Assembly: GCA_019915135.1 (NCBI GenBank)
Contig: JAHLMK010000006.1
Coordinates: forward strand, 2,170,001-2,234,000
Reading direction: 5' to 3'
Origin: Strobilurus pachycystidiatus
Lineage: Eukaryota > Basidiomycota > Agaricomycetes > Agaricales > Physalacriaceae
Length of the DNA stretch: 64,000 nucleotides
Shown: positions 3,401 through 56,300 of the stretch, in pieces
Numbering within the stretch: position 1 is the stretch's first letter
Layout of the letters: each line of letters starts with the position of its first letter
Program-made: the position numbers and the translations under genes
The notes under the pieces: generated by a model
What the model was told of the DNA's origin: nothing
Database searches by the model: none
Seen by the model: the letters and a program-made list of their open reading frames with translations, nothing else

Positions 3401-4771
3401 GGATACGACTCCATCATGGTAGTGGTCGACCGATTTACGAAGATGGCAAGGTTCATGCCCACCACCACTCACATTACGGGAGAAGGAGCAGCGAGGCTGT
3501 TCCAGGATCACGTCTGGAAGGACTTCGGATTCCCGATAAGTGTCATCAGTGATCGAGGAGGCCAATTCGTGGGCCAGTTCACCACGGCACTATACCAAGG
3601 ACTTGGCGTCAAACAGCGAGCATCCACCGCGTACCATCCACAGACAGACGGACAGACGGAACGTATCAATCAGGAACTGGAACAGTACCTCCGCGTCTTC
3701 ACCAATCACCAACAAAACGACTGGGCATCCTGGCTGTCCCAAGCGGAATTCTCTTATAACGACAAAGCCAGCTCGTCTACGAAGAAATCCCCCTTCCAAC
3801 TGATGTATGGCATCAACCCGCTTCGAGGCACGGAACCCCGCACCGCCACCCGGAACGAGAGTGCGGACGAGTTCGTCACTCGCCTGGACAGGGCTCGGGA
3901 GGAAGCTCGCGCCGCCCTGACGGCCGCCGCCGCCACTATGAAGAGGTTTTACGACGAGAAACGACGACCGGATCCGGACTACAAAGTCGGGGACAAAGTA
4001 CTTCTCGAGACCACCAATCTCAAGATCGATCGTCCCTCTATGAAACTCGCCGATAAATGATACGGGCCTTTCAAAGTCCTGAAGAAGATCGGTAAGGCAT
4101 CGTATCGCATTCAACTCCCCGCCTCGTTCAAGATACACAATGTCTTCAACACGGTTTACCTCCGACCCTACATCGAAGGACTCCCTCACCAGACCTATAC
4201 GCGACCCGATCCCGTCATCGTGGATGACGAGGAACAATGGGAAGTCGAGAAAATTGTGGGGCACAAGAAGTTCCGTGGACGGACCCAATACCTCCTCAAA
4301 TGGAAAGGATACCCCCTAGAGGAGAACACTTGGACGTACGAAGCGGATATTCAAGCACCGGCCCTTCTCCGGGCTTATAAGAAGAGCGAAGGGATCGTAG
4401 CCGACGTTCTACCAGCAGGGAGTCAGTCCCGATCGCAGCGTCGCGCTAAGATTCGCGCCATGGGGACATGCGCCTTGAAGAGGGGATATTGTCATGACTT
4501 GACTGCGCCACCGACGCCTAGCCGATCGAAGGTGACGCCTGCGCGGGCGGGAGCGACGGTATCGCGCCCATCGTCGGGATCTATCCGACGGCCGTCCGAC
4601 GGTAGCACATGGTGGCGGAGCTCGGCCGACGGGAAAGCGGGATCGGGCGGGATAGGGCGCGCTCCCGACCAATCACGGGCGGGATGGCGCGATGACTCGT
4701 GCGATGACTCGGGAATGAGTCAGAGGGGCGCACCCGCGCCCATCGGGCGTCGGGCGTCGGGAACTGTATAA
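476..4771 (+). pseudogene. Pol polyprotein (PR-RT-RH-IN-chromodomain) with in-frame TGA
   Basis: The frame runs 476-4060 (1194 codons) and continues in the same register after TGA 4058-4060 to 4771. Visible domains in order: aspartic protease motif LIDSGATGAYVN (~nt 947); reverse transcriptase with YMDDILVF (~2051); RNase H with EVDASEFATGG (~2491); integrase with an H-H/C-C zinc region (3160-3290), catalytic SVDL (~3365), ISDRGGQF (~3545) and the DDE-type core; then a chromodomain with WEVEKIVGHKKF and LLKWKGY (4235-4310). In relatives the codon after LADK is normally Trp, so TGA most likely replaced TGG. The chromodomain, which directs insertion to histone-marked chromatin, would be lost unless the stop is read through. 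No other lesion was seen, so the copy looks young. Confidence 0.9.
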
Positions 4772-4908
4772 AAGAGTCAGTAGTCAGTAGAGTAGTTCTT
4801 CAGAGAACCGTTGTCTTTCCCCCGGGATTCAATACACCACCCTTTACACCGCTCTCCAGTCGTTGCCTCGTGCGCCCTCGCTATAGACGAATAGGCCCGA
4901 CGCTGACA
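4490..4908 (+). repeat. 3' LTR of the Ty3/gypsy element
   Basis: It starts TGTCATG just after the purine-rich run and ends CGCTGACA, giving short TGTCA...TGACA ends. A TATA box (TATAAAA, 4767-4773) lies in the U3-like part, followed by a pyrimidine-rich leader. The 5' LTR is outside the window, so the boundaries rest on the terminal motifs alone. Confidence 0.65.
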
Positions 4909-5409
4909 CATACCGGCTTATACCATCTCTTGTTTGTGATACCCCCACTCTGGGATTTTGATCGCGTCGTTCGTTGTGATCGGCGCGTCGCGTATGTTTA
5001 ACGAACACGTACTAGTGGTGACGGCTAATGTTCCTGATTTGCGTGATGGTCGATCGCGCCCGGGGATATTCTGTTGTCTAACTTATCCTTTAGGACCAGG
5101 TGTCCGAATGATGCGAGTGCTCGTTTCGGAGGTGTTCCTGCGGGTATGCCGATGGGTGATGGATGCTCGCCTTTGCCGGGAGGTGGCGTAGCGTTTCATA
5201 GTGTGGGGATCGCTTATTGGCGAAGGTGGTTGTCTTTCGACCGGTGGATCTGGATTTTTATTACGACAGTCCTCGACTGTATTTCTCTTCCGAAGAGAAT
5301 GAGCTACGCTGCTTGGCTCGAAACTTGTTCTTCGGTCTTCCCACCGCTAGTTTCCATTTCACGTCAGGACCCTCCTCCACGAGGAGATCCATGGTATCGT
5401 CTGGGTGGT
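4909..5409. other. No recognised gene
   Basis: Short plus-strand frames here encode nothing recognisable. The segment lies between the LTR end and the minus-strand ORF. It is probably the truncated 3' side of the element that contains that ORF. Confidence 0.35.
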
Positions 5410-6432
5410 TTATTCCTGGTTCGTGCGGAAAGGTTTTCCGTTGTCGGAATAGAGTACGGGGTGTTGAAAGAGAATGAGTCCTCGATCCAAGGGTTGGACG
5501 GGGTTCGTGGATTTCTCGAATTCCACTCCGTATAGGAGACGTAGGTGGTGCGGGGTGTTGCAAGTTTGTTTTGCGCTGTATAGATGCACGGCCCAGGGGT
5601 CCAGGGTGAGGGAAGGGGGGTGGTAGAACACCGTGAGATCTAGGCATGGCTCGGTATAGAATGTCGGGGTTCGTATACGTCGTAGTGGCCCCCGTAGATA
5701 TCTTGCCTGAAGAAGGCATAATCCTTCTTTCGTGTGTCGAGATAGATGTTGGGGGGTTCTCCACAGAACTTCCATACATCGTGCCATGATGGGGATATGT
5801 CCGTTCGCCAGAGACCAAAGAAGAACCCAGTCTTCCTCTAGTCCCAGCAACCTATAGACCACGTCTATGACCCATGCAGCTCTGCCCAGAAGGCTCCGGT
5901 ATTGAGTAGGACCTGATCGTACTGTTGGTTTGAATTCCGCGATGTGGATGGTCAACTCCCTAAGGAGGGAGAGTACTCGATGTTCGGTTCTGCGAGCTCG
6001 TACAAGGGGGGGGATAGTGTCGGAGGTTGTGGTGATTGGAGGCGTTACCCCAACGCCGGGGGAGGGGGGAGGTTCCGATGTAGTGGTACGTGGGCAGTAT
6101 AGAGACTTCGTCCTATTGTTACGACCTGGTCCCGCCGTGACATGGACTCGCTCATGAGAGACTACCCCTGTAGTCAACCCATAGCTTTCCTGCGAGCGTA
6201 CCACGTACATCCTCGTATTGTGCTCGACTGGTCGTACTGTACCAGTCGTAGGATCCCTCGATGGTCGCACATCCATCTTGTCAGAGACCGAGATACCGTA
6301 GGAACCTAATCCCAAGGTACAAGGCTCGCCGCCGGACCTAGTCCCAGGTGTGGCGTCGGAGAGCCTTCTCTCGTCGGGGTCCACGACGTTGACGGAGGTA
6401 TCGAAGGGAGACATGTGGGTGAGTCCTACCAC
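5410..6432 (-). CDS. Uncharacterised 340-aa ORF, possibly part of a decayed retroelement
   Basis: I do not recognise this protein. The frame is long and single-exon, has no clear domain, and is rich in Arg, Thr, Ser and Pro with a Leu/Trp-rich second half. On its own strand it is preceded by an A/T-rich TATA-like stretch around 6520 and by G/C-rich DNA at 6590-6720 that resembles in composition the U3 of the neighbouring gypsy LTR. It is followed by the gypsy LTR. This layout would fit the first ORF of a second LTR element cut off by the gypsy insertion, but no zinc knuckle or polymerase motif supports that. A chance ORF is also possible. Confidence 0.3.
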   Translation of the reverse strand: MVGLTHMSPFDTSVNVVDPDERRLSDATPGTRSGGEPCTLGLGSYGISVSDKMDVRPSRDPTTGTVRPVEHNTRMYVVRSQESYGLTTGVVSHERVHVTAGPGRNNRTKSLYCPRTTTSEPPPSPGVGVTPPITTTSDTIPPLVRARRTEHRVLSLLRELTIHIAEFKPTVRSGPTQYRSLLGRAAWVIDVVYRLLGLEEDWVLLWSLANGHIPIMARCMEVLWRTPQHLSRHTKEGLCLLQARYLRGPLRRIRTPTFYTEPCLDLTVFYHPPSLTLDPWAVHLYSAKQTCNTPHHLRLLYGVEFEKSTNPVQPLDRGLILFQHPVLYSDNGKPFRTNQE

Positions 6433-7303
6433 AGAGAGCTCAGAGTGCCCAACGGAGTTGTATGGGGGAAAACTGGTTAAGGACGAAGTCTGAGTAGCTA
6501 GTACAGCGTTGTCTCTGTATTTATATTAATCCCATGCTTGCTCATCGCTCCTTTTCTCGAAGCTTCTACCACATACTCCTGATGCGTCGGGAGTGGTCCG
6601 ACGCTGCGGATGACGGAGATCCCGACATCCCGATGACCGCCCGACAGATCGATGACCGCCCATTGGTCGGGAAGGCGGGTTTGGTCGGGTACCGACTCCC
6701 GCCTGACTCACGCGGCCTAAGTATATTCCCGGGGTGTCTTACACCATGTGTGCTCGCTCCAAAGTGTATCCGGGAGGGCGGTAAGCCCGACAAGGGCGGG
6801 ACTTCAGGATCCCGGTTCTGTCGCCATAAGGGATCGAACCCTCAACCCCTTGATATATCTCTCCGCATCTTCCGGTGTGGCGCTGGTTCGTATAGCCGTA
6901 GTGTCAGGACGCCAAAGTGTGACCAAAGTGGAGGGCCTTGATCTACGGTGAGGCCACATCATGACAACGCTGCCTACCTGTTCAGGAAACACAACCAAAA
7001 ATATGAATGCTCTGTCCGTCATCCAGCGGACCAGGGAAAATTGCCTGTGCAGGGAGAAAAAAAATTTGATGCATTGGGAGCATTGAGTCGGGGAGCATTG
7101 AGTCGGCAAGGATGCCCTAGCGGGAGTGTGTGAGGAGGTTGAGAGAGCGTTTTGTAGAGATATTGGTGGTTTGTATGCGCGTGAATAACGGAATTTGCAA
7201 GGCAAAAAAGCGAAATCGGCTGGTAACGGTTGCGTGCAGCTGCCGCTCCAACAAATTCAGATACCGCTAAGACTTTGAATATACTATATATCCCAGCCCA
7301 TGA
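6433..7303. other. No gene; LTR-like G/C-rich tract and tRNA-like B-box fragment
   Basis: 6520-6760 is a G/C-rich tract with repeated CCCGACCAAT-like words on the minus strand and a TATA-like ATATAAATA. At 6822-6880 the minus strand contains a TPsiC-arm-like GAGGGTTCGATCCCTT and a weak acceptor pairing, but no anticodon arm, so it is not called a tRNA gene. A short direct repeat of GGGAGCATTGAGTCGG lies at about 7076-7105. Confidence 0.4.
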
Positions 7304-35389: not shown

Positions 35390-35682
35390 CATCTGATCGC
35401 GGAACGTTCCCTACCGCGACGGTGAATGGGAATCTGCGCGCACTGTTTTGGCGAATATTGTTAGGGCCCATTTACAGGAAGCCGCTATACACAACTATAC
35501 GCACCTGGTCCGTCTAGTCTCCCGCTGCAGCCTCCATTACCGCTATGGCCAACAAGAGCCCCAGACTGTGTGGTCCCATGGTGTGGGCGTGCACGGTGTT
35601 TGAGAGTGCGCATCGCAGCCTGTTGTGTTGAGTGTTACTGAAAGAAACCGAGATGAATTTGCCGCCGGGAGGCAAGACTTCT
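35390..35682 (-). pseudogene. Truncated second copy of the membrane-protein gene 5' end (left part)
   Basis: 35575-35640 matches the start region of the 32638 gene, including the context CCATGGTGTGGGCGTGCACG. The signal-peptide start is at 35579 (MGPHSLGLLLAIAVMEAAAG). Upstream sequence to 35682 matches the intact copy's promoter. A short exon-like match (GACGGTGAATGGGAAT) lies near 35418, but the remaining exons are missing or unrecognisable. The MULE begins at 35683, about 100 bp upstream of this ATG; the rest of the promoter copy continues at 45064. Confidence 0.75.
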
Positions 35683-35726
35683 GAGGGATCAGTACGGCCG
35701 TCTATTCCCCTGTGCCTATCGCTGAC
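35683..35726 (+). repeat. Left TIR of the MULE
   Basis: Begins GAGGGATCAGTACGG and contains the inner block shared with the right TIR, ending ATCGCTGAC. Confidence 0.85.
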
Positions 35727-36228
35727 ACAATCCGCCACGAAATGGTTCGAAAATGAGATTTGATAAGATCCCAACTCTTGGCAATCGGATCCGGCTGTCA
35801 ACCGGCCACAACTCGCCGTAGACCACTACCCGAATCGGACTTGATTCCATACTCGCCAGCTGCTCGCTTGCACCGCTGCTTCCACTGTCAACGTTGTCAA
35901 CTTGCGACAATTCCCAAGACTTCGCGACCCAAAAGGCGGTATTGCCCCAACTTCTGGAACTTTTACTCTCCGTAAGAGTCTAATTACACGGCCACCTCGG
36001 GATCCTCATGCTTATACAGGAATCTCTGTTTCCAAATCTGCCCCGGGGTCAACAAATTGGATCGCACTCACGTCAAGTGTGGCGATGAGTGGGCGTGGAA
36101 GCGGTGGCAGGCGGCGGGGGATCGCGAGGAGACTCCAGATCCAGGTGGGATGCGGTATGATTCTCTTGTCGGTAGCTTTGTACTGTCGCGTTGCAGCGCG
36201 TCCTGTATTCGCGTCTTTGCACAAGCCA

Positions 36229-39200
36229 ATGAATGTCCTTGACCTTCTCGATTCGTCGCCCCGTAATGCGCCCACTTTGCCCGCCTCGCCTCAAGTTGGG
36301 CCTCCTTCTCCCAGACCTCCTTCTCCTCGACCTCCTTCTCCTCACCCTCCGGCTCATACCGCTGCATCTCCTGCAAACAAAGACATTGCGCCACTCATTC
36401 GAAGCTTAGCGCGTTATTCCTCTTCGCACCATTCCATACATGCTTCTGCCTCACTCGAGCAATCCCTAGCCTCTCTGGTTGCAGCCCTCAGCCTATCCCC
36501 AGATCCAAGAGAAGATGCTGCCACCTCGGCTACTCTCATTGATGAAGCCGTCAATCCCCTACTCCCAGCTCTATTGCAGTCTGCTCCACCTTCCCCCTCC
36601 AAAGTCTACGACAACTATCCCATATCCAGTCGTACTACCCTCTCGCGTCTCTATATCTATGAAGATGTGAGCGCGTACATCGAGTATCCCGAGTCGCACC
36701 TTGTCCATCCAGTGGGGTACCTTTTTCGGCAGGACCCCGCCAATTGGCGCAACCCAGTTGAAGATTTTGCCTACAGCATGGGTTATCCTTCCGGTCAGAC
36801 GGTGGAGGGCGCCCATGTCTTTCATAATCTTCTTTTGAATGGGACGGGGGAGCCCGTTCCCTGTGCAGAAAGTCATGGTACATGTACGTTGCACGCTTCG
36901 CTGGTTTGACACTGCTTATTGACATGTCTTCTAGGTCAAGGTGTAAAAGTATGCCCCTTCGTATCTGAAGAGCTTTATGCGCAGCGTCATACGTCTGCCT
37001 CAAGACAAGACATTATGGACCGCCTATCCACAGACCGCGAGCATCAGCTGGCTATGGGGTCCCCCTCACGCGAGGTCTTTCTCAAGACCAGCGCGTTTAT
37101 CACTGGTCTTAGGCGTGAAGGTTGTCCAGCTCGTGAAGATGAACAACCGGATTGGTCTCCGTCGGAGGAAGCTGCCGTACTTGCCACCGAGTCCCGCAAC
37201 CAACAGATCCAGCGCGGATATCGTCCGAAACAGCCCAAATGCCGTGGGCGCATCTGTCTTGACTATGACGCCTCCGGACAACCCATCGTCCAGTAAGCTT
37301 TCCATTCAGCCTTGGCTACCTTTCTAATCGTCTCTCTTCTGTTATAGTTGCGAGTTTTTTGACCACAACTCAAGCCGCGACCACTACTTCTACTACCTTG
37401 ATGAAGCTCACGTTGATGTTGAGTATATCGAGGCTGTTTTGACTGGAGACACAGAGGAAGTTGAGGCGAGAGAGGCCTGTGCACAGCAACTTGGATATGG
37501 TCCACTTGCTGCTTGTAACACCGTCGCCAGCTCTGTTTCAAAACGACGCCACTGCCGTATGTGATTCACGCTTTGATTTTGTGTTTATTCTCAATGAGTC
37601 TTAGCCTTTGATCATTGAGACCCAGATACGGGACTTCTTCAACAGCACATGATGGAGCGGATCACCTGTGGTGTCAAGTTTAGAATCTTCGAGCCAATGG
37701 AGGACTTTCGCGCCCAGTGCCCTTACACTTTTATCAGTGTGGTAGGCGAGCACACCCATTTGCCTCCTCTTCCACTCAAAACACCTCCTCGAATACGCGC
37801 TGTTCTGTTCGACCTCTTCAGTCAAATTGGAGAGGATATACCTGACCTTACGCCTCGCCGTTTCCTCCGACACAGCATTGTCCGTGCTTTTCTCCAGAAA
37901 GCATATCCTACAGAGCCCATTCCGACGCTCACAAATCTTCATATCTCCCTGGCAAATCGTGCAAAGATAGGGATGTATATTCGACAGATAAAGGCCTCCA
38001 TCTATCCTGATGGGTCTGGATGGAACGGTTCGAGTTTTTCTCGGCTTTGATATCAGGAACTCACTATATCTTAGGCATGCTTCGTCTCTATCGAATTCAA
38101 ACTGAACAGTATCCTTGTGAGGCAAGGTACATTCGAACGGTCATTGATCACACTGGTCCGAGCGGGGAGCCCTATCGTATTATCATCTGCATGACAGCGA
38201 AAGGTAGTCGTCGCCTCCGGTCTGCTCCCTATCTCCAGATGGACGTTTCTTACAAGCGTATTGTGGGCTTCAAAGAGTTTGTGATAGGCGCTTGGGACCG
38301 TGAGTCCCATATGAGTAGGTTTCTTGGTCATCTACGGGTGCACACGCCAACACTTCTCCAGATATTGTATTTTGTCGGGTCTACGTCAACAGGGAGACTG
38401 CAGTCGTGCACCACAGGGTGTTTGAAGAGATTGACAAGCTTGTCCTGGCCGATACTGGGCAACCTATTCGCTGGCGGCATCTGGACGCCCTTTCATTGGC
38501 GGAATATCGAGGATGCATGCTCCAATTGATGGGTGATCAAGGTGGCGGTCAAGCTAAAGGTCAGTTACAACCATCCCTTGCCATTCTCCGCCTCATGACC
38601 CAAGGTCTCGGACTCTTTCTCAGGGAGAAAGCTCAGGGTGCAGACTATCGCGAAAAGTCAGATCTACATGAGCCTCACAGGCGTCTATCCGATCTCTCTG
38701 TCTGGGAGCACCTACACCGCATCTACAGAGTCTGCGCAATTCACTTTAGAAGGAATGTCGATGGCGCACAAGTTCCACAGTCCGTTCGAAAGGCTATGAA
38801 GGGCCTGATCCGCGTCGAACATCCGGACTGGGATGGGGCCATAGCCTTCATTGAAAGAGAAGGCGGAAAAGCAGGGCAAGGTGAGGACACTGGCACAAGT
38901 AGAGCGTTCGTTGACTGCTTTTCAGACTGGGTAGTGAATAAAATCAACAGTGGTTTCGTATTCCAGTGCATCTGTTGGCAAAACAGCAAGATTCCGCTTG
39001 AGATTTGGAGGGCCGGAGACCGGGATGACAACATGATTGAACAGTCTCACTCGCAGATTAATCTCAGTGGGCGCTATACCACTCTGGTCGGAGGTGTTGA
39101 GAAGGGTTACTATCATGATACAGTTCAGATAAACTCTATCGAGGTGAGGTTCTTCCTTTTGCTGTTCGAACAGATCCTCATTTCGAAATTAGATGGTTGA

Positions 39201-39648
39201 AACCTTTGGTATTAGACCGTCTTATGCGACCGGTCATCTCTCTGAGAACATGGCCCGTCGGAACAAACGCCAGAGTCAGTGACCACCTCCTTCCTGCCGT
39301 CTTACTGATGTCCATGCAGACGCCAAGCGCTGCAGTCGGTTCATTGGTGAAGATGAGGCCATTACCGAGCACAACGACAAGTTCGACGCAGCGGCAGAGC
39401 AGTATAGAACCAAATATCAAGACTATCTGGCGAAGCAGCGCCGACATGAAGCGCTACTTTCCCGACCGAGTCCTCCCCCGTCCGATGCTCAGGTGGAGAA
39501 GTCGAAGCAGTCCCTAATGAAAGTATGGAGCGGGATGGACAAGGCGTGGAAGGCCCTTGAGACCATCTCCAAGCGTTCGACCGCTCTCAAGAAGGGTTCG
39601 GGGCGGGTGGCACCTCAAACTATTGTAGATTACTTCAATGCCAACTAA
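36229..39648 (+). CDS. MULE-like DDE transposase with GCM1/WRKY-type zinc finger
   Basis: Multi-exon gene (exons 36229-36883, 36935-37292, 37348-37556, then further exons to 39648) with joins in frame. The N-terminal half has Cys/His-rich segments, CEFFDHNSSRDHYFYY and CGVKFRIF...CPYTFISVVGEHTHLP, typical of a WRKY/GCM1-like DNA-binding zinc finger. The C-terminal half resembles the Mutator DDE core: MDVSYKRIVGFKEF (first Asp), LMGDQGGGQAK (second Asp), YRVCAIHFRRNV, and DDNMIEQSHSQIN (Glu in the position of the MULE N-N-x-x-E-S-x-H motif). At intron 37557-37604 the nearest 3' AG would put TGA 37616-37618 in frame; the AG at 37619 avoids it. It belongs to a multicopy Agaricomycete family. Its place inside matching TIRs with a 9-bp duplication supports the MULE call. 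Confidence 0.68.
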
Positions 39649-40555
39649 ATCATTCCAGAATCATATTTATAGTTGTCTGCGGGTCAAAGACATTTGTCAC
39701 AAGTTTGCTAAGTAATTCGAGAAAAAGAAAAAGCAGGGAAGCAGGGAGATATGGTATAACAGAGACATGTCCCGGTATTGGGTCAGGAAATGGCCGTCGA
39801 GATCGCGAACGGGAGGACGCCACTCGCCACTCGCCTCCGCTGCACCCCCATTCCTCACCCTGCCCCACCCCCTTTGATCGCGTTCACGTTTGTCCTCGTC
39901 CTCCTCCCGCTTCGCAGTGCCGTCCTCGTCCTCCTCCTCCTGCACGTCCCCCAACGGACCCCCCACCCGCAAAATCGAATCGAATGAGGCGCTCATCGAA
40001 TGGCTCGACACAGACTCCCCTCGGAGCTCGTTCTCCAGCTCGCGGTTCCGCTCCTTGATCCAGTTACTGCGAGGTGTGTCGTGGGTTGAGAACCGTGCGC
40101 ATCTGAACGCGCTCGTCCTTGGACAGGTTGAGCGCTGTCTTGCCGGTGGATGCAAGCTTATTTACGAGCAGAGAATGAGACAGAGCTGGCCCAGGCTCGG
40201 CGCATCGAGCACAAGTCCGTTCAACATGGTGAAAGGCGACCAGGCAGTGACAGGGCCATCAAGCCACACGTGAGCGCGTGCAGGTTCACTCAACGCTGAC
40301 CCAGGTATGTTTTCCGTGACTTTCCTTTGTTTGTTTCCACCACATTGCGTTCGACGCGTCGTTGATTGCTGAGCCAGGTATAAAGGTGAGTCGTCACCAT
40401 CTTTCTCTCCCCACACCGCAGCAAGAGTGCTGACAGCAGATGCTGCAGCACTAGGCATTTACACCGGCTCGGCGTCACGAGCTGCTCATTGCACTCAAAG
40501 CAGCTCGCTGCAGCCTTCGGGCGCCCAACTGTCACTCACACCCGCCGCCGCTGCC
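39649..40555. other. Non-coding spacer with a possible captured gene fragment
   Basis: On the minus strand 40170-39700 a frame reads GKTALNLSKDERVQMRT, resembling the end of an ankyrin repeat, followed after a stop by IKERNRELENELRG and an acidic Glu/Asp-rich tract. It has no start or full domain, so it looks like a captured gene fragment. 40380-40555 should hold the promoter of the dioxygenase gene. Confidence 0.3.
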
Positions 40556-42545
40556 ATGGTCGCTCTCACGCGCCGGGCACTGGCGCACTTCGTCGCTCTA
40601 TTTTTTGCTGGGAAAGAGTGAGCAACCGCAGCCTTCGCCGCCCCGTCGTGCAACAAAAATTGATTAGCCTCCCCCCCCTCCCCCCTCAGAGCCCTGACCG
40701 ACTCCAGCGACGCCGACAACTCAATTTTCAATGCAGAAAGCATCAACCTCAATGTTGACCTTGAGGCCATTGCGTGGATTCGCGACCAGGATACCGCCAT
40801 GGAATCGCGCAACCGCGACCCCGCCGTGCAAGCCTTCGTCGACTACGCTCATGCGTCTAGCGACACTGCCTCATCCCCTCCAGCCGCTGGACCATCCAAC
40901 CATTTTGCCGCCTCGACCACGCGCCCCCAGAGGAAGCGTCCCCCCGTCAACACTCTTCGCCCTGCCGCCAAACGCCGCAAGACCGACGAAACACCCACAA
41001 TACCCGCGGTGCCATACACCAAGTGAGTTCACATTCTCTGTCACCACCATACTGCTGCGTCGACTTAACTCACTGTAGCACCGCTGACAAAGGGCTTTGC
41101 ATCCCCCCTCCCTCATTGCCCTGGACCGAAACCAAGCCCAAGCGCGGTTATTTGCGCAAACGTCGTTACAAGAGCAAAATCAACAGCGTTGAGGCGGACG
41201 ATTTTTGCGCTCAGGACAACATGAGAGTCGAGGATCTCCCGGCAAGCTCAACCAAGTGGCAGGGGACGCGGTTTGCAGCATCCGCGGCTCGTATCCTGAG
41301 GGCTATCCATAGTAGCGCTGAGGAGGTGTGGAAACATCTTCGTGGCATCACACTTGTTCCTTATCAAGGGTAAGCCCCCCCCCCCCCACTTCTTTCTCAG
41401 ACTTTCTCAAATGCTGCACAAGACGGGCAACTCGTCTCATGGATACCTCCGGAAGGCTCGTAATCTTTCGTTCGAAAGTGACGAACAGGGTTCTTAGCCT
41501 CATGCCCGACTTCATGAAGGAGGCCGCTGCCTTTGTCGAAACCTGCGACCCGATGTCTGAATCCGACAGGAATGCGAACCAGCGCGGGCGCCACTGGTTC
41601 TGCGTGGCGGGCATTGATCGCAACAACAAGAAGGTCAGAAAGTGTCACTCTTTCCTCGGCGCCGCCCAGATTATTCTTTAGGAGCCCGGGTTTTCGAAAT
41701 GGCACCAGGATAACAGCCCACACATTGCACATGCCTTTCGCCCAGGCTCAGCTTTCTCTCAGATCAGGTAAGCTCGCTCACACTCTGCTTCAAACATCTG
41801 AGGCCCTCAGTGAGATAGGTAACGATCTCGTTCATCAAGTGTTTCCCGGAGTGGCTACTCGATTCCAAGACGCCGCGCACAACATCTCTGGTCGATTCGG
41901 CATGGAGTTCTGGCCCCAGTTCGGTCTTTTTTGGAACTGGTGCCTCAACGCCAGCTTTGAGGGCGTCAAGCGCGTCTACTGTGACCCACATGTCGATTTC
42001 AAGAACGTCGCGCTCGGGGTTTGCATGATATTCGTTTATGGTAAGCATTACTCTTGAATTGTCGGTACTGCACTCAACTCGAACAGGCGTCTTCAATCAT
42101 AAAGAAAAGGCGTGGCTTGTAATCTGGGAAGCGGGAGTCTGCTTGGAGCTTCCTCCCGGAGTCTTCTTGTTGTATTCGTCCTCCCTGTTCTACCACTTCA
42201 ACATAGATATTCAAGGTGAGCCCTCATTTACTCGCATTGAATACAGGCTGAATGGGTTCCCAAGATTTGGAGTTTGTCGTGACCGACGGCGAAGAACCCA
42301 CACGCACCAACTCACGCCCGCTCAATGGACCGCCGTTGACTCGCCCAGAAGGGATATCAGAGGAAGACTGGGTGGCAGGGAACGGTCGCGGCTCCGTCGT
42401 CTGGTTCAATCAGGCATCCATGTTCCAGACGGCGGAGACAGGGTACCCAACGCTCAAAAGGGCTCGCAAGGCTGGGCACTCGGGCAATGCTGATTATGAG
42501 AAGTTTATGGAAGGCCCCCATGCAGTATTTCCCCGCTCCTCTTAA
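40556..42545 (+). CDS. TET/JBP-like 2OG-Fe(II) dioxygenase, MULE cargo
   Basis: Eight exons (40556-40617, 40690-41022, 41079-41369, 41423-41633, 41682-41767, 41811-42040, 42087-42215, 42265-42545) sum to 1623 nt, 540 residues, with every join in frame. The N-terminus is Ser/Pro/Lys-rich with a KRRK basic patch, a possible nuclear signal. The C-terminal half reads as a double-stranded beta-helix dioxygenase: iron ligands H-x-D in YCDPHVDFKN, then KAWLVIWEAGVCLELPPG, the distal His in SSSLFYHFNID, and RGSVVWFNQASM, whose Arg fits the 2-oxoglutarate-binding R-x-S...F-x-Q pattern of TET/JBP proteins. TET/JBP enzymes oxidise 5-methylcytosine or thymine in DNA. Basidiomycete members are known to be expanded with transposons, mainly KDZ elements. 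Family assignment is from motifs only. Confidence 0.55.
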
Positions 42546-42810
42546 TTATGGCACTCGTGTTCCATTAAAATATCATCCATTCTTAAAGTACCTACAAATT
42601 TAAGCGTTTCTACAAGCAGACCAGTGCGAATCGTAAGCGAATCATAAGCGTAAGTAAGAGTATGTTAAGCGATCGTTGTAAGAGAGCGAGTTCATCAAAG
42701 TCAAGTATCTAATATTCGTAAGGTGTTCAGTCTTGCAGGGAGCTAATCTTCTCATTTCATTCTAGAAGCGTGTCAGAACCAAGATTGCTAGGACCGAGGC
42801 GATGGGAGAC

Positions 42811-44661
42811 TCACTCAATAACAGACGGGTCAGCACAGTGCGAATCAAGTCCCAAATGTTCACCATGCGCAACGTGAGAGCGAATAAGGCCGCACTCATG
42901 GCACTGCTGGTACCCTGTCTTTAGCACCGCCCACATGTTGTCAGAGACGCCTGCAGAGGAGTTCCATAGGGCAAAGGCGACAGCGGTCTTGTCAGCGGAC
43001 ATCTCACTTGTGTATTGTCCCATATTGTCATAGGAGAGTTCTGGGGAGAAGTTGCGGTTAAGGAAGCGTTGGGCGTTGTCGGTATTCTGCGGGGCCCGCA
43101 AGACTATATGGCCGTTAGCGGAAAGATGGAACCAAGTCAGTGAAGGGCTTACTCAAGGTGGGGGTCTTCCTCGCATTACCACAGCAGCCCACTACTCTAT
43201 GCGAGTTGTATCCCGCAACGGAGAAGTTGCTTGCACAGACCATGCAGTATCTGTTGTCAGCAAGGATGTCCCGCCAAGTCTTGTACGTGATCCCGAATCC
43301 AATGAACCAGCGTAAGGCCTCGGACAGCTTGTCAAGTCCATAGTATGAGGAGAGGTTGGAGGCGTTGCCATCAAAAAGTTCGAGCTCAGAGACATAGGAC
43401 CCGACATAGAAAGGACTGAGAGGATGGAGCTCTGGCTCCTCTGCAGGAAGACGTTGTCAGCGCCAATGGCAAACTCAAAGCAAGGACAACTTACCCTGAT
43501 ATCGATCTGCCTGTTGGTCCAGCTTTGAAATGAACAAGTCGTCTGATGAATGTCAATAAGATCCTCCGTATAAGATGAATAGCGCTTACCGGAATTGGTC
43601 TTCCGCAACGCCAGCTGTGAATCAGACAGAAGTCGGTGGCCATTGGCTTCCGGACCAGAAGGCGAAGCCTGCGACACCACTTCGTCCTTGCAGGGCGTGA
43701 AGGAACCAACAAATTCTGTTGAAGCTGCAGCGGAGGGGCGCTTGACCGAAGGACCAGCGGAAGATGAGAACGGGACGGAAACGGGAGATGAGGGCGCTGT
43801 GGATGGGGAGGAGGCCATGCCAGAGACGTTGAGAAGACTATCATCAGCCTGAATGCTGGGCGAGGAGTGGCGCTCGGCCATGGTGATGTCCTCATCCTCC
43901 TCGTCATCCTCATCGTCTTCATTGTAGCTATAAATCCACTTTGAGTCCTGCAGCTCAACTAGAGTGAAGTTAAGTGAAAGATCAGAATGATTGGAGACAC
44001 GTCTTACTCCAACATTCACAGGTGTTCCCATCATGCGAAGCCTGTAAGACGTTGCGCAGGGTGTGGTCCAGGGTGGGAGGGTATACGTCCACACCTCTTC
44101 TAACCCGGAGAGCACAAGAGTCCTCGTCCCTCATTGGATTGGAGGCGTGTCGACACAGCAAGCGGTCCGCGGGAAAAGAAATCCTGTAGTCAATGGCCTG
44201 GAGACCAGCCGTTTGAGTGCGCCGTTTTGTCTTGGTGCTCCGAGGCCTGTAGAATGGTCATCAAGTGCGAATGATAGAAAGGAAGAAACAAGCAACCTTT
44301 CAATTTCGATGAATTGGCCTAAGGACTTGTCCCAGGAAAGAAAAACGTCGTCAATGAAGGCCTGGTTGCATCGACGGCGCGCTTCAGTGATCTCATCTGG
44401 TGTTGGGTCCAGAGAAGTCGGATCCAAGAAATTGTTGGAGCGTTGGCGGCGATTGGGAACCTCAGTGAATGGGGCGCGCAGATGTTCATGCGGGGCACGC
44501 CAAGGGCCCGAGGGAGGTTGCGACGCAGATGAGGAAGAGGAAGCACGACGGTCTACGGAGGAGGTGGAACTGGACCCGTAAGGGTTGTAGCGGGAGCTGC
44601 CAGTGGGCTGACTGCGTGAAGATTGGGAGGAGGAGGCTGAAGGCCTACGGTGCGGGCGCAT
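42811..44661 (-). CDS. Cys/His-rich hypothetical protein, MULE cargo
   Basis: Several exons; start 44661 (MRPHRRPSASSSQSSRSQ), stop 42811-42813. The N-terminal third is Ser/Arg/Pro-rich and probably disordered. The middle has ITEARRRCNQAFIDDVFLSW, then an acidic stretch and a Ser/Pro linker. The C-terminal part has two putative zinc-binding clusters, CMVCASNFSVAGYNSHR...CCGN and CHECGLIRSHVAHGEHLGLD. An intron (GTAAGC...ATAG) joins ARKTPTL to the last exon in frame. I do not recognise the family. It is convergent with the dioxygenase gene (3' ends 265 bp apart), inside the same TIRs, so it is mobile with it. It may be a DNA-binding partner, but that is only a guess. Confidence 0.6.
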
Positions 44662-45010
44662 GGCGGACTGCCGAGACGAGTACAAAAAAAAGAGGGAAAG
44701 AGGTGCCAGACCAGGTTCTTCATTCAAGTTGGAGGGTTTTTATGGCGCGTACTTGGGATCTCAGATGCGAAGTCATTGCAGGCCGCGCACTACTTTGCCG
44801 GATGCTCCAGCTCTCTCCTTCTAGCTCAAGTCAAGAGGTAAAGACAGAAAGTCAACTGCTGCTGTCATTCGATGTCGCGACAAGTACGCATCATTAAGAA
44901 TGCCAGCAACCGGCGCACGGGCAGCAACCGGAGCATCACAGATCAAGGTTGCTTATCTAGTGGTTCTATCTCTTGATCACTTGCTCCTGACCGATTTTGT
45001 CAGCCTCCAC

Positions 45011-45054
45011 GTCAGCGACAGGCACAGGGGAGTAGACGTCGGTAGTCTGGCCTC
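45011..45054 (-). repeat. Right TIR of the MULE
   Basis: Read inward from 45054 it begins GAGGCCAGACTACC and then matches the left TIR over the inner 28 bp with two differences. Confidence 0.85.
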
Positions 45055-45063
45055 AAGACTTCT

Positions 45064-47234: not shown

Positions 47235-50200
47235 ATGCCTTCATTCAAAAGCATCGTTAAGTGGTTCACCCACGTCTTTCGCCGCAAGTCAGCGTCTAGG
47301 AAGTTTGCACACAATCAGCCTCCGCCCGCGCTGGACGAGCTATCCGCCCCTGCTGCTGTAGACGGGCAGACGTCGTCCTTCCAGCGAGCTCCTCTTGATA
47401 TACCTAAATCGGTGGACACGGTCATCTCCAACGGAGGCGGGCGCACAGTCAATAGCAGGATATCCGCCCCTGCTCAGGCAGATGTCCAAGAGACGTCTTC
47501 GCAGCGCGTCCTACTCGATAAGCCCAAACTGGCGGACGCGGTCATCTCCAACGGAGAAATCATCTTCAGCGCGCTCGATCAAACGGGAGCGCTGTTGCAG
47601 ACGGTCCCTTGGGTGGGACCTGTGGTGGTCGCGGTGCGAAAGCTCCTTGAAATCCACAAGGTCAGCAAACTGGGCTCTCTATCAAGTCGATGTGCTCACT
47701 GATCCCTTGCGTAGAACTACACGTCTGATCAAGAACAGGTTGCGCAGCTGGTCGGCAAATCCGAAGCTATTTGGAACACGATTGCACCAGTGCTCGAACA
47801 AGTCCAGGCTACCCGTCGTTCGGCTTTGCTCGACGATCTGAAGACCGACTTACTCGCTTACAAGGGGTCAGCATCTCTGTTCACGATCCAAAGCCGACGC
47901 TGACGTCCCATAGACTGCTTGACGACGTAGCCAACTACATCGAACAATACAAGGAACACACCATCTTCACGAAAGGCACCGCCCACGAGAAGTTCAACGA
48001 TGACTTCACAGTCCTTGATAAGGAGATGGACAAGTATCGCGAACTTCTCCAGGTAACTCGTCGCTCTAATTCAAGACTTTTTTCTAATCCATTGTCCCAC
48101 CAGACAAAATGCTCACTTGTGTCAATAGTGAAGGTTGACTATCTGCATGGCCAAGTGTTAGTGACTTTGTATCGGTCACATCTTCATATCTGACTCTGTC
48201 ATCTAGCGTTGAGGACAAACTCTTCGAATGGCTCGGAAGTCCTCCTGACGGGCGTTTCAATCTCATGCAGGCTCAAGAGGCACGGATGGAGAGCACTGGC
48301 AAATGGCTCATCCTGCATGATCAACGCTTCCTTGAATGGAAGAGGACTCCGGGGTCTTTGTTATGGATATCAGGGAACTGTACGTTGCACAACATAAGTT
48401 ACATGCAGTGACTGATTGTAATTATAGCGGGCACGGGAAAGTCAGTCCTCAGGTAGTAAAGACACTTCAGGCTGCTCCGACATTACTGATTCCTTCCCAA
48501 CAGCTCAAGCATCATTGACAATATCGATATTGATAAGAATATCCCACTGGCATTCTTCTACTTCAGTGTCAACAAGTCCAATAGCAGTAAGGATCACTTG
48601 AACCCAGCCATCCGGTCCCTTCTCTATCAGCTCTCTCGGTACACTCCTACTTCTCATCGCATTACAAGCGACTATTACCATGTGGCTGGTCGTGGCGGCC
48701 AAAAATTTCCTGCACACAATGTCATCCTTGAGATGCTGGAAAAGGTTCTCCAGGACCTTCCTGAAACATATATTGTCCTGGATGCACTTGATGAATGTTC
48801 TGCATCAGAGCATCAGCACTTGCTGGACTTCATCATGTTGTTGCACCAATGGCAAAATACAAGGTTGCATCTTGTGGTGACAAGTCAGCCACGGGATCCC
48901 TTCACAGCTTGTTTTTCGTCTATTTCGAAACAGATCAACCTAAATGGCAATCACTGTGTGTCAGACGATATCACTACCTTCATCACCAATCAGCTACAGA
49001 CAAATGATGATCTGAAGCATTGGTCATCAGAGCAGAAGCAGGAAATCATGACAACTCTCATAGAACGTGGAGCAGGCATGTAAGATCCCAATCATTGACT
49101 ATATCTTCTTTTCATCTGATTCTCTTTCTTCTCATAGGTTTCGCTTTGTTGCCTGTCTGCTTCGCGAGTTGGTGGAGTGTCATAACCAGAGGCAATTGGT
49201 TGTGGCTCTCTCACAGCTACCTCAGGATTTGAATGCACTATACGACCAGATTTTGTCATGCAACAGTAAAAACTATCACTGAGAGTTACACCGAGCTCTC
49301 CAATGGCTGTGTCTCTCCCTTCGAAGCATCACCATTGATGAGTTAAATGATGCTGCACTTACATTTGACACATCAACCTCTACGTGGCAATTTAATCCTG
49401 CCTTGCAAACTCAAAGTAGAATGCTGTTGACAAAAAAACTATCAAGTCTGGTTGTCATTATTGAAGAGGAAGATGAGTTTTCTAAAGAAAAAAAGAGGAA
49501 CATTGTTCGTAAAAATCTTTCCTAAAACTAATTCAAAACTGACTAAATTATCTAGGTCCAACTTGCTCACTCATCTGTTCGTGACTATCTTACAATTGGG
49601 GTCACCAGTCTTGCAAAGCAATATAACATTCATCCATCATCTGGTCATGACATGATTGCTCATACTTGTCTTGCACAGCTCTGTTACTTCAGAACAGGGG
49701 ATTGAAGTAACATTGATCAAATTCGAGACATAAAAGCTAATTTCAAACTTATGGAATATTCCAAAGATTACTGGTTGAAACATCTCAACCTCAGTGGATG
49801 TCAATCAGAGAGAATGGAAATGGCAAATTTACTCATGACACCTCAAAGTCCACAGTGGCATTTTTGGCATCAGTTACTTTCTTTTTGGGAGAAAGACCAT
49901 AGGTTTTCACTTCTACAATATGCAGCATACAATAATCAGCAGAATGTAGTTTATTCTATAGTTACAGCTGATTCAGTCAAACAGCAGATACTCAATGCTG
50001 CTCTTATTTCATCATCTGAGAAGAACAACAATGACATTGTCATTCTCCTTTTGCACCACGGTGCTGATGTCAATGCTCAAGGTGGTCAATATGGAAATGC
50101 ATTGCAGGCTGCCGCTCATCGTGGACATGCCACTGTTGTTCAAACCCTCATTGGCCATGGTTCTGATGTCAATGCTCAAGGTGGTGTATATGGGACTGCA

Positions 50201-51499
50201 TTGCAAGCTGCAGCTGCCAATGGACATGCTTATGTTGTTCAGACCCTTCTTGACCAAGGCGCTGATGTCAATGCTCAAAATTATAAATATAAGAGTGCGT
50301 TGCAAGCTGCAGCTTTTGAAGGACATGCTACTGTTGTTCAAATTCTCCTTGACCATGGTGCTGATGTCACTACTCAAGGTGGTAAATATAGGAATGCATT
50401 GCAGTATGCAGCTCATTATGGACATGCCAATATTGTTCAAACCCTTCTTGACCAAGGCGCTGATGTCAATGCTCAAGATGGTAAATATGGGAATGCGTTG
50501 CAAGCTGCAGCTTATAATGGACATGCTACTGTTGTTCAAATTCTCCTTAACTACAATGCTGATGTCAATGCTCAAGGTGGTTACTATGGGAATGCATTAC
50601 AGGCTGCAGCTTATAAGGGATATGCTCCTGTTGTTCAAATTCTTCTTGCTCAAGGCGCCAATGTCAATGCTCAAGGTGGTGAATATGGGAATGCATTGCA
50701 GGCTGCAGCTAATGGTGGACATGACACTGTTGTTCAAACCCTTCTTGCTCAAGATGCTGATGTCAATGCTCAAGGTGGTTATTATGGGAATGCATTGCAA
50801 GGCGCAGCTTCTCATGGACATGCCTCTGTTGTCCAAATCCTTCTTGCTCACGGCGCTAATGTCAATGCTCAAGGTGGTTATTATGGGAATGCATTGCAAG
50901 GCGCAGGTGCAGCTTGTTGGGAATATGCCTCTGTTGTTCAAACTCTCCTTGACCAAGGTGCCGATGTCAATGCTCAAGGTGGTGAATATGGGAATGCATT
51001 GCAGGCTGCAGCTTATTGTGGACATGACACTGTTGTTCAAACCCTCCTTGACCACAGCGCTGATGTCAATGCTCAGGGTGGTAACTATGGAAATGCATTG
51101 CAGGCTGCAGCTTATGATGAACATACCACTATTGTTCAAACTCTCCTTGACCATGGCGCTGATGTCAATGCTCAAAGTGGTGAATATGGGAATGCATTGC
51201 AGGCAGCATCCTATCAAGGAAACACAGATATTGTTCACATCCTCCTTGAGCACGGTGCTGATGTCAACATAATAGGAGGGCCTCATGAAACTGCTTTACT
51301 GGCTGTGGCAATAGGTCAGACAAAGAGAAATTGGTGGAGTAACGCTTATATAGAAGTTGTCCGTTTGTTGATAGCACATGGAGCTGATGTTGAGCCCGTG
51401 TTGGATTACTATTCCATACCCAGGGAAAATGAATGTCTTCCAGGAATTATGCAGATTTTACTGGATCACAAAGCAGCAAAAGGGGGTGAACAAGTTTGA
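47235..51499 (+). pseudogene. NLR-like NACHT/P-loop NTPase with ankyrin repeats, two in-frame TGAs
   Basis: Fungal NLR architecture: signal-sensing repeats on a STAND NTPase, linked in fungi to non-self recognition and programmed cell death. An N-terminal helical domain (MPSFKSIVKWFTHVFRRK ... VPWVGPVVVAVRKLLEIHK) is followed by a P-loop assembled across two introns (ISGNSGTGKS, exons around 48349-48379, 48428-48454 and 48504 on). Then come Walker B YIVLDALDEC (~48773), a helical region with VQLAHSSVRDYLTIG, and ankyrin repeats. Introns join in frame at all sites I followed, including 49505-49555. TGA 49280-49282 (after CNSKNYH) and TGA 49703-49705 (after YFRTGD) interrupt the frame between NTPase and ankyrins. 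The first probably replaces a Trp codon. The copy is likely a recent pseudogene, or expressed as truncated parts. Confidence 0.82.
50066..51259 (+). repeat. Twelve near-identical 99-bp ankyrin repeats
   Basis: Units of 33 residues follow DVNAQGGxYGNALQAAA and VVQTLLDxGA. Unit nine has two extra residues (ALQGAGAACWEYASVVQ). A degenerate thirteenth unit follows. Differences concentrate at a few positions (such as 8, 18-19, 22-23 and 30-32 of the unit), while the backbone is almost constant at DNA level. Confidence 0.95.
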
Positions 51500-52755
51500 G
51501 TAGTACACATGTTTCCACTAGTCAATAGTAAATACACATATTCTTGAGTTTATCTTTGCTGACTTTCACATTCAAGATTGCACTCATCTTTTGGTAAGTC
51601 TTTTCTTTACTCATCCCAATACACCATCTTTTCAAGCAGAGCATTCAAGATGATAAGGTAGCGTCTCAGTGGATAACTCAATGGTAAGTATATAACCTAT
51701 ACTTTTCACAAATATATATACTTACAACCTTAGGCTGTATACATCAGCTCCTCATATGCCTCAACATACTAAGAAAGTGCTGCACAAGCCCCTGCAGAAG
51801 GCGGATTAGCAACAGAGTTGAAGGGACATCACAACCAAGAATGACAGAGTCACAATGAGGAGCAGAATGAAATGAAAAAAGAGAACAAGATCAATTCACT
51901 CCCTTGCTTCAAACTCAGCCCAGCACCGTGCCCGTCCGCCATCTCCAACTGGCAAAAGTACTTCTCTTGCCTTGCTACTCGTCATCCTCCACCTATACTA
52001 TTTGGCTGGGAATTAAGATCGTGTAGGTGTTGGAAATGAGGCTGCAACAGTGTATGCACCCATGTAAAACTCCTGGGATTGAGAGTCGAGACTGAGAAGA
52101 GTCAAGACTCAAGCTCAGGTTTCTGCGTGAGAAGTCCCAGCCTGGGGCCTGGGCCATAGTCCTCCTCCAAACCTTCTATCTCCAAGGTCTGTGGTCTGAC
52201 TCTCAACACTTCCTCCTCTACCAGCGCCAAATGACTGCCTCTGCATTGATAGTGTGCATGACCACATTGCCCGTCAACATTTCAGGCTGCTGTTTGGGGT
52301 CCATCTGGTAGCGGTGTCATGATGCGTCTCCAGGCAGACCACTTGTCTCATCTACACAGCCACACGGCTCATTGCCACAGCCACAACTCTGGCTCACAAT
52401 GGCTGCACACGCATCTATGATCTATCTTCCATGCCACAGAAGCTCTACCGGGAAGTAAAGCAGGATGATGACAGAGTCTAGATGCATCAGGAGCTCTGGG
52501 AGCACCTGCGCATACTCTCATAGTGGATCAATGTGAACACCAGGGAACCGGTACTTGTCACAGTATGACAGTAGCTTCTCTTGGTCTTGGATCACTTCTC
52601 AGACCATTGCACACATTGTTGTAATGGCCACAACACTCAGGAACAGCTACAGCACTCAAGAAGGAAGCACACACAAGATACCACTACCAGGAATCGCTCT
52701 AGAGACTCGTGGAGTCATCTAGAGGTATATCTATTGAAGGAGAAGTCACAACACT
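51500..52755. other. No recognised gene
   Basis: 3' flank of the NLR gene, then low-information DNA with no frame over 60 codons that looks coding. It may include degraded repeat sequence; nothing specific was identified. Confidence 0.4.
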
Positions 52756-53356: not shown

Positions 53357-56300
53357 CTATGCTAAATATACAGTCTGGTATGTATAGAGACTAAGCCAAT
53401 TATTCAGGAAAAAATGATCACATGTATCTAAAACGGAGCTTGTCGAAATCGGAATATCCCATTGCTCAACAGAACATTTGGCCCAATCAGGCGTGAGATG
53501 TGCACTCTGTCGAACATTTGAAAGCGGAATGATGGACCAGTGACGTGTTTGACGGTCTGCAATGTAGGCCTTTGATAATGATGGCATGTGATGACTTCGT
53601 GCCCCCTTCTGTGTAAGAATAGGCTTTGTGTACCACTCGATATAAGCAAGTGCATCGCGCGGCCAGTGTGAAGGTGTTGGAACCAAGACTCCATGAAGCA
53701 AGAGCTTTGCGGGAATTTTGAATAGAACACGTATGCGGCCAACACGTGTGCCTGTAATTCATGAGAAGAGATTCAGCATCACAGAAAAAGCCTCACCGTC
53801 AAGACCAGCACTCTCCGCCTCATCACCTGTCAAGACAATCACTGCGTCAAACTGTCCACCATCCTGCGGATTTGCCTTGACCACGTCACGAGTCTCGAAG
53901 TCATCCGTGATCCCTTCGCGCCCAAACTTGAACGAATGATATATATCAACACCATCAAATGGTAGAGTTGTGTAATTGACTGCCAAGGCACCCAGTTTGT
54001 CGCGGCCCACAGCCTGGATATAGGCTAAGAGATGTGACGAGAATAAGGGAACATGATGCTGAGTGACTATACGGCGAAGAGGTTTATTGGAAATGCTGGG
54101 ATGCAGTGGTAGAAGGACTTTCTGCACACGGCCACTGGATTGAGGAGGTGGAGATTTTGGAGGGTCTGGTAACTTGGGCTTGGGCGCTACGGAAATAATG
54201 ATCAATCGATGTAATATTATGAACAACGAAAGACTTACCGATCTGTTTCTTAACCCATGTGGTATACCGTGTGAAGGCATGCACATTCTCTTTGCGCAGA
54301 ACCCACGTCGTCATCTGCGGATATTCATCCCGTTTATTTGACGCCCGCCAGCCCTTTTTCGAGAAGTCAATGTGAAGGCGCTCGAACATTTCAGTGTTGA
54401 AATTATTCGTTGCCCCAAACATGCGAATGGAGGCGACATAGTGACGTAGGGCATGGAATTTCGGAATGTTGAAGTGTTCACGAAGACCAACCTAGATATC
54501 ATCAGTATAACCTCGCAAGCTGTCAAAAGTGAAACATACATGGATGAAATAACTCTTGTTAGTGTCCCAAGTCTTGAGAGCGGTGTCCATGTACCCAAGC
54601 GTCTCGTCGTCGTGAGTCGAGTACTGAGCAAGGTAGATGAAATCGAGGATGGCGCGGCAAGCAGTAACACCACGGTCTGGTATATCTGAGCCGACTAAGC
54701 ACGCCAAAAGGATTTTGCCCATGTTCTTGCGCTCGGAACCACTGATCTGTGACAGTGCGCTGATGCCATTCTTGAAGTGACGAAGACCGAGGCCAGGAGG
54801 AAGGCAGCGAATACGGCGATCCATCTGTTCCTCTGTCATGAGGGTCTGACACCACTCAATCAGGTGTCTCAGGACGCCCTGATATAGCTGATGCAAGACG
54901 TCGGGCGTTGTACTGAGATGGAGGTTGGTGTAGGGGAGATCACGCCAGAAAGGCTCCGGGACATGGCCAGATACACCCTCTGCCATGCACGAGTCGAAAT
55001 AGGCCTTTGTAGATGCCGCGGAGTCCTTCGCATCAGACATGACACCCAACGTCCAAGCTGGGGTGCGCAACTCAAAAATCCCCTCATCTCCCAGCTCCGT
55101 CGCACCACATCGGCACTTTGGACAAGTCCCGTACTTCGCGCAGGTCACCAAGCACTGCTCGGGATAGTCGGCGACGTAGCTCGCCAGGATGGGATGAACC
55201 ATGCGCACAGCACCATCACCACTCGTCATCTCAACCCCAATCTTCCCGGCCTCGACGAGGGGTGCGAAAATCTCGGTCATCGCAGCGTGGAATAACCTCT
55301 GATACCGTGAGCGCATGGCATTCTTTGAGATCTGGCCTTTGCTGATTTTGTCGATGGGTAGGTAGGCAATCAAGATGCACGCTAGTTCGGATGGTTTGCG
55401 ACGGATATGACTGGGAATATTCCCGAGGGTGAGGTAAACTGGATAGGCTTGGCGACTACCCGAGAACTGGGTCAGCTGGGTCTTGTCCGTCGAGACGATA
55501 AGTGGCGCTACAGTATGACCACTGGGGATCTTATCCTAGCACACATGTCACTCGCGAGGTATTGAAGAGATCGAGGAGCAAACATACCTGCACAAAATGC
55601 CACCACTTCGCTGTCCACATCTCGTTGTACAGCCGACGATCCTGGCTCTTGTCGCTGAAGAGCGTGCTCGGTTTGTATACCAGATGTTGAGCTAATTCGG
55701 GGTCACCCCACAGCGACCGGATGGAGTCCAGAATATCACGGTGTCGTAGTGTGAACTTGTCGTTGGGGAGATCGGGGAAGGAGAGATGCTTCACCTTCCA
55801 ATCACCAGCGCGGCGAGGAAGGGCGTCCACGATCTTGTGTAGACCGCGGGTGCTGCTATATGAGAGGCCAAGTTTTTCTTTCACCTGCACGGGAGTACAT
55901 CAATATGGATGCGCACAAAGACCGTGAAAAACATACCCCTGGAATGTTCAACAGCTCATTGAAGGCATTATGCCCGATCCCTTCGTTGACCATCCACTGC
56001 GCTATCTGCCAATCCAGCTGTGACGCGAAAGGTCGATACCATTCCACACCATTCAAATCCGCCGCACCCTCACCATCCATGACAACATCTGCAGACACTG
56101 GCATCCCGAAAAGAGCGGCCCACTTCTCATGAACGTTCTCTGACATGCGCAAAATTGAGCCGGCAGTCGGGTGTTCGACAGACACGCGCTCAGTCGTCTC
56201 GTCGTCATCGTCGTCGTCTAGATAGCGCGCACGTCCCCCGAGCAGAGTCTGCATGCGGATTCTCTGAGTAGACGGACCCGGACCCGCCTGGCCGATTGCT

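Follow-up and report, generated by a model that had tools for sequence, protein, structure and literature searches.

The 64-kb window analysed here (the whole stretch from position 2,170,001 to 2,234,000 of contig JAHLMK010000006.1 of Strobilurus pachycystidiatus; source assembly of 51.8 Mb in 61 contigs) contains, at positions 35683-45054, a 9.37-kb DNA transposon bounded by a 9-bp target duplication. It encloses predicted genes for a transposase, a TET/JBP-type dioxygenase and a Cys/His-rich protein. In this genome the transposase and the TET gene were found to move together, and the TET gene occupies a slot whose content is replaceable. The features of the element are as follows (window coordinates; in the predicted gene models, short GT-AG introns were chosen by eye and by comparison):

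35674..35682, no strand: left target-site duplication, AAGACTTCT; other 9-bp repeats stand at the same boundary in other copies
35683..35726, plus strand: left terminal inverted repeat, starting with GAGGGATCAGTACGG; half of an 80% complementary pair, checked by shuffling
36229..39648, plus strand: predicted transposase, 981 aa, 10 exons, intact frame; D596, D673, C724xxH727 and E811; 136 homologues, 120 of them listed
39655..42551, no strand: exchanged segment; similarity to the C9 copy ends at 39654 and returns at 42552
40556..42545, plus strand: putative TET/JBP-fold 2-oxoglutarate (2OG)-Fe(II) dioxygenase, 540 aa, 8 exons; H388, D390, H441 and R489; fold taken from a relative
42752..44661, minus strand: predicted Cys/His-rich protein, 535 aa, 7 exons; relatives near 8 of 20 transposase loci
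45011..45054, minus strand: right terminal inverted repeat; other half of the 80% complementary pair
45055..45063, no strand: right target-site duplication, AAGACTTCT; perfect match to the left one

The sequence AAGACTTCT occurs exactly twice in the window, at the two sites given above, and its reverse complement does not occur there. Directly inside the duplication lie inverted-repeat arms of 45 nt (35682-35726 and 45011-45055), 80% complementary; local alignment of the two element ends gave a best score of 48, compared to at most 27 in 200 shuffles. One base at the edge of the terminal inverted repeat (TIR) is ambiguous, and if a 9-bp repeat is assumed the TIR starts with GAGGG. The boundaries were confirmed externally by a copy on C9, which begins and ends at the same positions and has its own 9-bp repeat, TGTTCATGC. 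The first-pass annotation of this DNA had described 9-bp direct repeats outside inverted repeats of about 44 bp and three genes between them, one a 540-residue dioxygenase with an HxD..H..RxS signature; all of this was recovered, the gene model giving the same length and placing the signature at H388/D390, H441 and R489. The element is real, its frames are intact and it belongs to a mobile family; its mode of transposition is probably cut-and-paste.

Clustering of 67 transposase matches in the genome gave a family of 20 loci. A TET-like match was located within 6 kb of 14 of these, compared to an expected 0.022 such neighbours per locus (P about 2e-19); three pairs of loci are near-identical twins, so that the independent figure is 11/17. 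At 12 of the 14 paired loci the TET gene is oriented towards the transposase, while in the window and at C3:856-862k the two genes run in the same direction. By class, 12 of the paired TET genes resemble that of the C9 copy (C9-type) and two, those of the window and of C10, are window-type; for the latter class 34 of 77 matches were kept, the window's own first exon and 42 weak matches coinciding with C9-type ones having been left out. Between the copies on C1 and C13, 3 of the 4835 bases compared are different; their left flanks are unrelated, and each displays its own 9-bp duplication (CTAAACTCG and CATGATGGG, respectively); the C1 element, 6582 bp in length, has both the transposase and the TET matches inside it. 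The left-end flanks of the C4/C5 twins are also unrelated. As the near-identical C1 and C13 copies each possess a duplication of their own, the transposase and the TET gene move together, in agreement with the earlier suggestion that the dioxygenase travels with this transposon.

A genome search with the left-end DNA revealed one further place (C9:1674907, 95% identical), and the right-end DNA was found at C9:1684268-1684356 (92% identical) and C16:46266-46346 (88%). The C9 copy, with ends matching those of the window element, holds the same three kinds of gene, except that its TET gene is of another class. Compared to the window, its DNA is 77% identical in the transposase (interrupted once, at window 38030-38145) and 67% in the Cys/His gene. 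The borders of the exchanged segment between them lie 6 and 7 nt past the stop codons of the transposase and TET genes, respectively, and in C9 this slot is occupied by a 480-aa gene of a different TET class on the opposite strand. Beyond that gene, at approximately 1680800-1681850, frame pieces resembling an alpha/beta-hydrolase were noted by eye, perhaps a captured fragment of a host gene. Comparison with the window model placed an in-frame stop near the end of the C9 transposase, and this copy is therefore probably not autonomous. At the C16 place a TET gene, a Cys/His gene and the right end have been kept, and a transposase was not detected.

The TET slot is thus replaceable, as the window and C9 copies, with matching ends, hold two TET classes. 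Their transposases have 90% identity over the pieces that align. Conversely, the C9 and C1 copies have transposases of 47% identity and TET genes of 87%, and C9 and C6:2453k give 44% and 86%, respectively (over fewer residues). The window TET is 64% identical (172/267) to that of C10, the orientations being opposite, and 71% and 70% identical to two TET loci that lack this transposase. TET genes therefore come and go at this slot whichever transposase stands beside them, and we read these values as suggestive of an exchange of TET cassettes between elements.

One possible explanation for the pairing is passive hitch-hiking, the TET gene being captured cargo of no benefit to the element and kept through the abundance of such genes. 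TET-like clusters are indeed numerous (83 in the 51.8 Mb, 71 C9-type and 12 window-type, most of them not beside this transposase), and Mutator-like elements (MULEs) are described, in the part of the literature consulted, as prone to acquiring host gene fragments. Pairing at 14 of 20 loci is nevertheless far above expectation, a TET gene fills the slot of both the window and C9 copies despite their differing classes, and the frame of the window gene is open over all 540 aa with every catalytic residue present; we consider passive carriage unlikely. A second scenario, in which the TET gene nested by chance inside an unrelated old element, might explain why in the window it is co-directional with the transposase, unlike at 12 of the 14 loci. 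It was rejected as highly improbable: the 9-bp duplication outside the element is perfect, the same combination of transposase family and TET class recurs at C10, and the exchange borders are no more than 7 nt from both stop codons.

Several further associations were observed. A window-type TET at C7:1999844-2003656 adjoins a Plavaka transposase (C7:2003883-2004840, opposite strand), and the window-type class is therefore not tied to one transposon lineage; by eye, this was the only window-type cluster beside a Plavaka element. The window itself contains a Plavaka transposase match at 54849-55860 on the minus strand (C6:2224849-2225860). At C9:826575-832323 (locus positions 1076-1510 and 4648-6824) there is a transposase above the Pfam MULE cut-off, its C-terminus SWIM-like by eye, and a TET-like gene of the HxDxxN class lies about 3 kb from it, possibly a second Mutator-TET pair. 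In Hymenopellis radicata (P0002/P0126 and P0066/P0122) and Lentinula lateritia (P0059/P0164), relatives of the transposase and of the window-type TET were found on equally long contigs, a hint of linkage.

The identity of the 540-aa product was examined through its relatives. In 56 of these, the counterparts of the window ligands (H371, D373, H424 and R466) are either invariant or conserved to at least 90%. One relative, P0123 (57% identity over the region of the query), was modelled, and the best structural matches of the model were NgTET1, CcTet, TET2 and CMD1. The double-stranded beta-helix fold nearest to TET members was thus seen on P0123 rather than on the window protein itself. Weighing against this placement, the Tet_JBP model PF12851 had no match in the window protein or in any of the 56 window-type relatives; among 34 C9-type rows it matched five (best E 0.0036) and the general 2OG-FeII_Oxy_3 model three (best E 0.0018), all weakly. 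The data support a TET/JBP-type dioxygenase, placed by modelled fold and by profile; the assignment in the first-pass annotation holds on these grounds and not through the PF12851 model. In Kojima 2025 (PMC12730594), the AG type of TET is marked by Gly/Ser in position H+5 together with Asp in position H+11, residues that CcTet has as well, and the PE type by HxE in place of HxD. Both classes found here have Asn and Cys at H+5 and H+11 (an ungapped count, which a structure-based alignment could shift), and HxE is present in neither, HxD standing in the window protein and in at least 90% of the 56 relatives.

The affiliation of the transposase was less clear-cut. A DDE (Asp-Asp-Glu) triad with CxxH between the second D and the E is at least 90% conserved in 94 transposase sequences; these residues were assigned by pattern and secondary structure, and the pattern is common to several other superfamilies. 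The 9-bp target-site duplication (TSD) of four copies is inside the Mutator range (8-11 bp in the accessible part of PMC6446971) and outside the 7 or 8 bp of KDZ (Kyakuja, Dileera, Zisupton) elements. TIRs are present in the window element; the C1 and C13 copies have only GAGG..CCTC, with a 16-bp subterminal repeat in addition in C1. An initial Foldseek search with the transposase gave no match. In a second structural search the relative P0006 moderately matched ISCth4, a transposase of the IS256 family and the sole DDE transposase among the best 50 matches, most of which covered the C-terminal coiled coil only; structures of Hermes, P-element and Transib were not among these 50, which excludes none of them. 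Owing to the DDE and CxxH residues, the TIRs, the 9-bp duplications and the moderate ISCth4 match, the transposase may be called Mutator-like.

A number of results count against the Mutator label. The window transposase matched no Pfam family up to E 5, MULE included, and specifically neither PF10551 (MULE) nor PF00872 (IS256); no SWIM or CCHC domain was found in it by Pfam. Pfam searches with single exons and with four full proteins returned no transposase or TET family, and nothing of significance came out of the PDB, whether searched by sequence or by profile. In 48 transposase relatives 57 weak families appeared, with no transposase among the best 25 and the remaining 32, by sort order, with one member each. 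When hhalign was run against single MULE and KDZ proteins encoded in this genome there was no match either, a weak test as one side was a single sequence. Accordingly, the first-pass label 'Mutator-like' is supported in part, by the duplications, TIRs, residues and moderate structural match, and gains nothing from the profile comparison with MULEs; membership in Mutator is not established. The Pfam results for the window transposase and its relatives and the hhalign result also speak for an alternative, in which the transposase represents an unnamed DDE superfamily of Agaricomycetes, with the TET gene in the role proposed below; an RNase H fold carrying a helical insertion is, in the sources consulted, common to several superfamilies. 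As the 9-bp duplication fits Mutator and the only DDE transposase among the best structural matches is an IS256 member, we hold this to be possible and the less probable choice. A KDZ element was rejected: PF18758 had no match in the window transposase, the TSD is 9 bp in four copies, and no KDZ transposase among the matches listed was within 6 kb of any of the 20 loci.

Signs of methylation were sought in the differences between twin copies. Over three pairs, 13 of 22 differences are CpG transitions (3/3 for C1/C13, 5/9 for C4/C5 and 5/10 for the C2 pair, which is weaker). The excess has P = 8e-7, or 0.0016 when the CpG share is doubled, the baseline being the CpG share of bases and not the CpG mutation rate of this genome. 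The genome contains seven C5 DNA methylase matches at six loci. The window element shows a mild CpG deficit (observed/expected 0.88), the C9 copy none (1.0); adjoining the element, window 48000-52000 has a ratio of 0.35 at a GC content of 0.43, a strong depletion such as is seen in long-methylated repeats. Because the twin differences concentrate at CpG, as expected of methylated, deaminating DNA, the data support methylation of some copies; on the action of TET they are silent.

Taken together, these results make it probable, in our judgement, that the element is a Mutator/IS256-like DDE transposon, probably of the cut-and-paste kind, which habitually carries a TET/JBP dioxygenase as an anti-silencing accessory. 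The transposase would cut at the GAGG..CCTC ends, and the TET protein would oxidise 5-methylcytosine, or perhaps a different methylated base, both within the element and in the DNA close to it. Methylation by the host would then no longer silence the transposase gene or hide the ends. Any active TET would suffice, which would explain the swapping of cassettes between elements. Self-demethylation is the likeliest and best-supported of the proposed roles of the TET gene; the first-pass annotation, too, had suggested that the element might use the enzyme to change methylation. The enzyme might instead act on the target site or on the chemistry of excision and integration, for instance by exposing or marking insertion sites; the TET gene does adjoin the transposase gene, mostly convergently. 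This is quite improbable, as the four 9-bp duplications share no motif by eye and the CpG differences of the twins suggest that the element is itself methylated.

In the self-demethylation reading the Cys/His-rich protein would probably be a DNA-binding helper, the weakest step of the proposal. It belongs to no Pfam family, and matches to it lie within 10 kb of 8 of the 20 transposase loci; none was found in the C1 element. At C2:2338-2376k, two inverted transposase loci, 99.7% identical, surround a stretch with several matches to its C-terminal part.

We lean slightly towards an Agaricomycete-wide Mutator/IS256-like or unnamed DDE lineage in which a TET/JBP oxidase is a standard, plug-in component, the elements of one genome sharing a pool of anti-silencing cassettes. 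It would make the twelfth transposon lineage known with TET enzymes. Two insertions with 90%-identical transposases and different TET classes, plus twins at separate sites, amount to a natural swap experiment, in which it becomes testable whether the transposon uses the demethylase for itself or carries it passively, and what base each TET class acts on.

The first-pass annotation knew of no description of such a combination. This stands in so far as none of the 11 lineages of complete TET-carrying fungal DNA transposons in the available text of Kojima 2025 is MuDR/Mutator (the paper names MuDR nowhere but in its introduction, in connection with other accessory genes) and a text search of it did not find '9 bp'; the general idea of TET-carrying transposons is already published, including a proposed escape from silencing. 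A literature search, one query of which was limited by a slash in the phrase, gave no Mutator-like element paired with TET/JBP among the matches listed. What that text does not contain is a lineage of Mutator/IS256-like elements with 9-bp TSDs in which one slot accommodates two TET classes. Compared to Coprinopsis cinerea CcTet (PDB 7w5p, 8jkk, 7vpn), identity is about 11%, and in an ungapped count N and C stand in place of G331 and D337; the AG type, as Kojima describes it, lacks transfer between superfamilies. KDZ elements are many in the same genome, and at least 20 of the 71 C9-type TET clusters are near KDZ loci (a lower bound, like all KDZ counts here, which cover the matches listed, less second-exon matches of loci already in the list); unlike the window element, they have TSDs of 7 bp (Kyakuja, which is without TIRs) or 8 bp (Dileera, Zisupton) according to the same text, and a PF18758 transposase. 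MULE and IS256 elements resemble it in the 9-bp TSD, the TIRs, the DDE triad with CxxH, the extra genes and the moderate structural match to ISCth4, and differ in their PF10551 or PF00872 profiles and in SWIM or CCHC domains. With the TET-carrying fungal transposons of Kojima, as far as that text goes, it shares a mushroom host, a TET/JBP gene within complete ends, transfer of TET genes between transposons and a proposed anti-silencing role.

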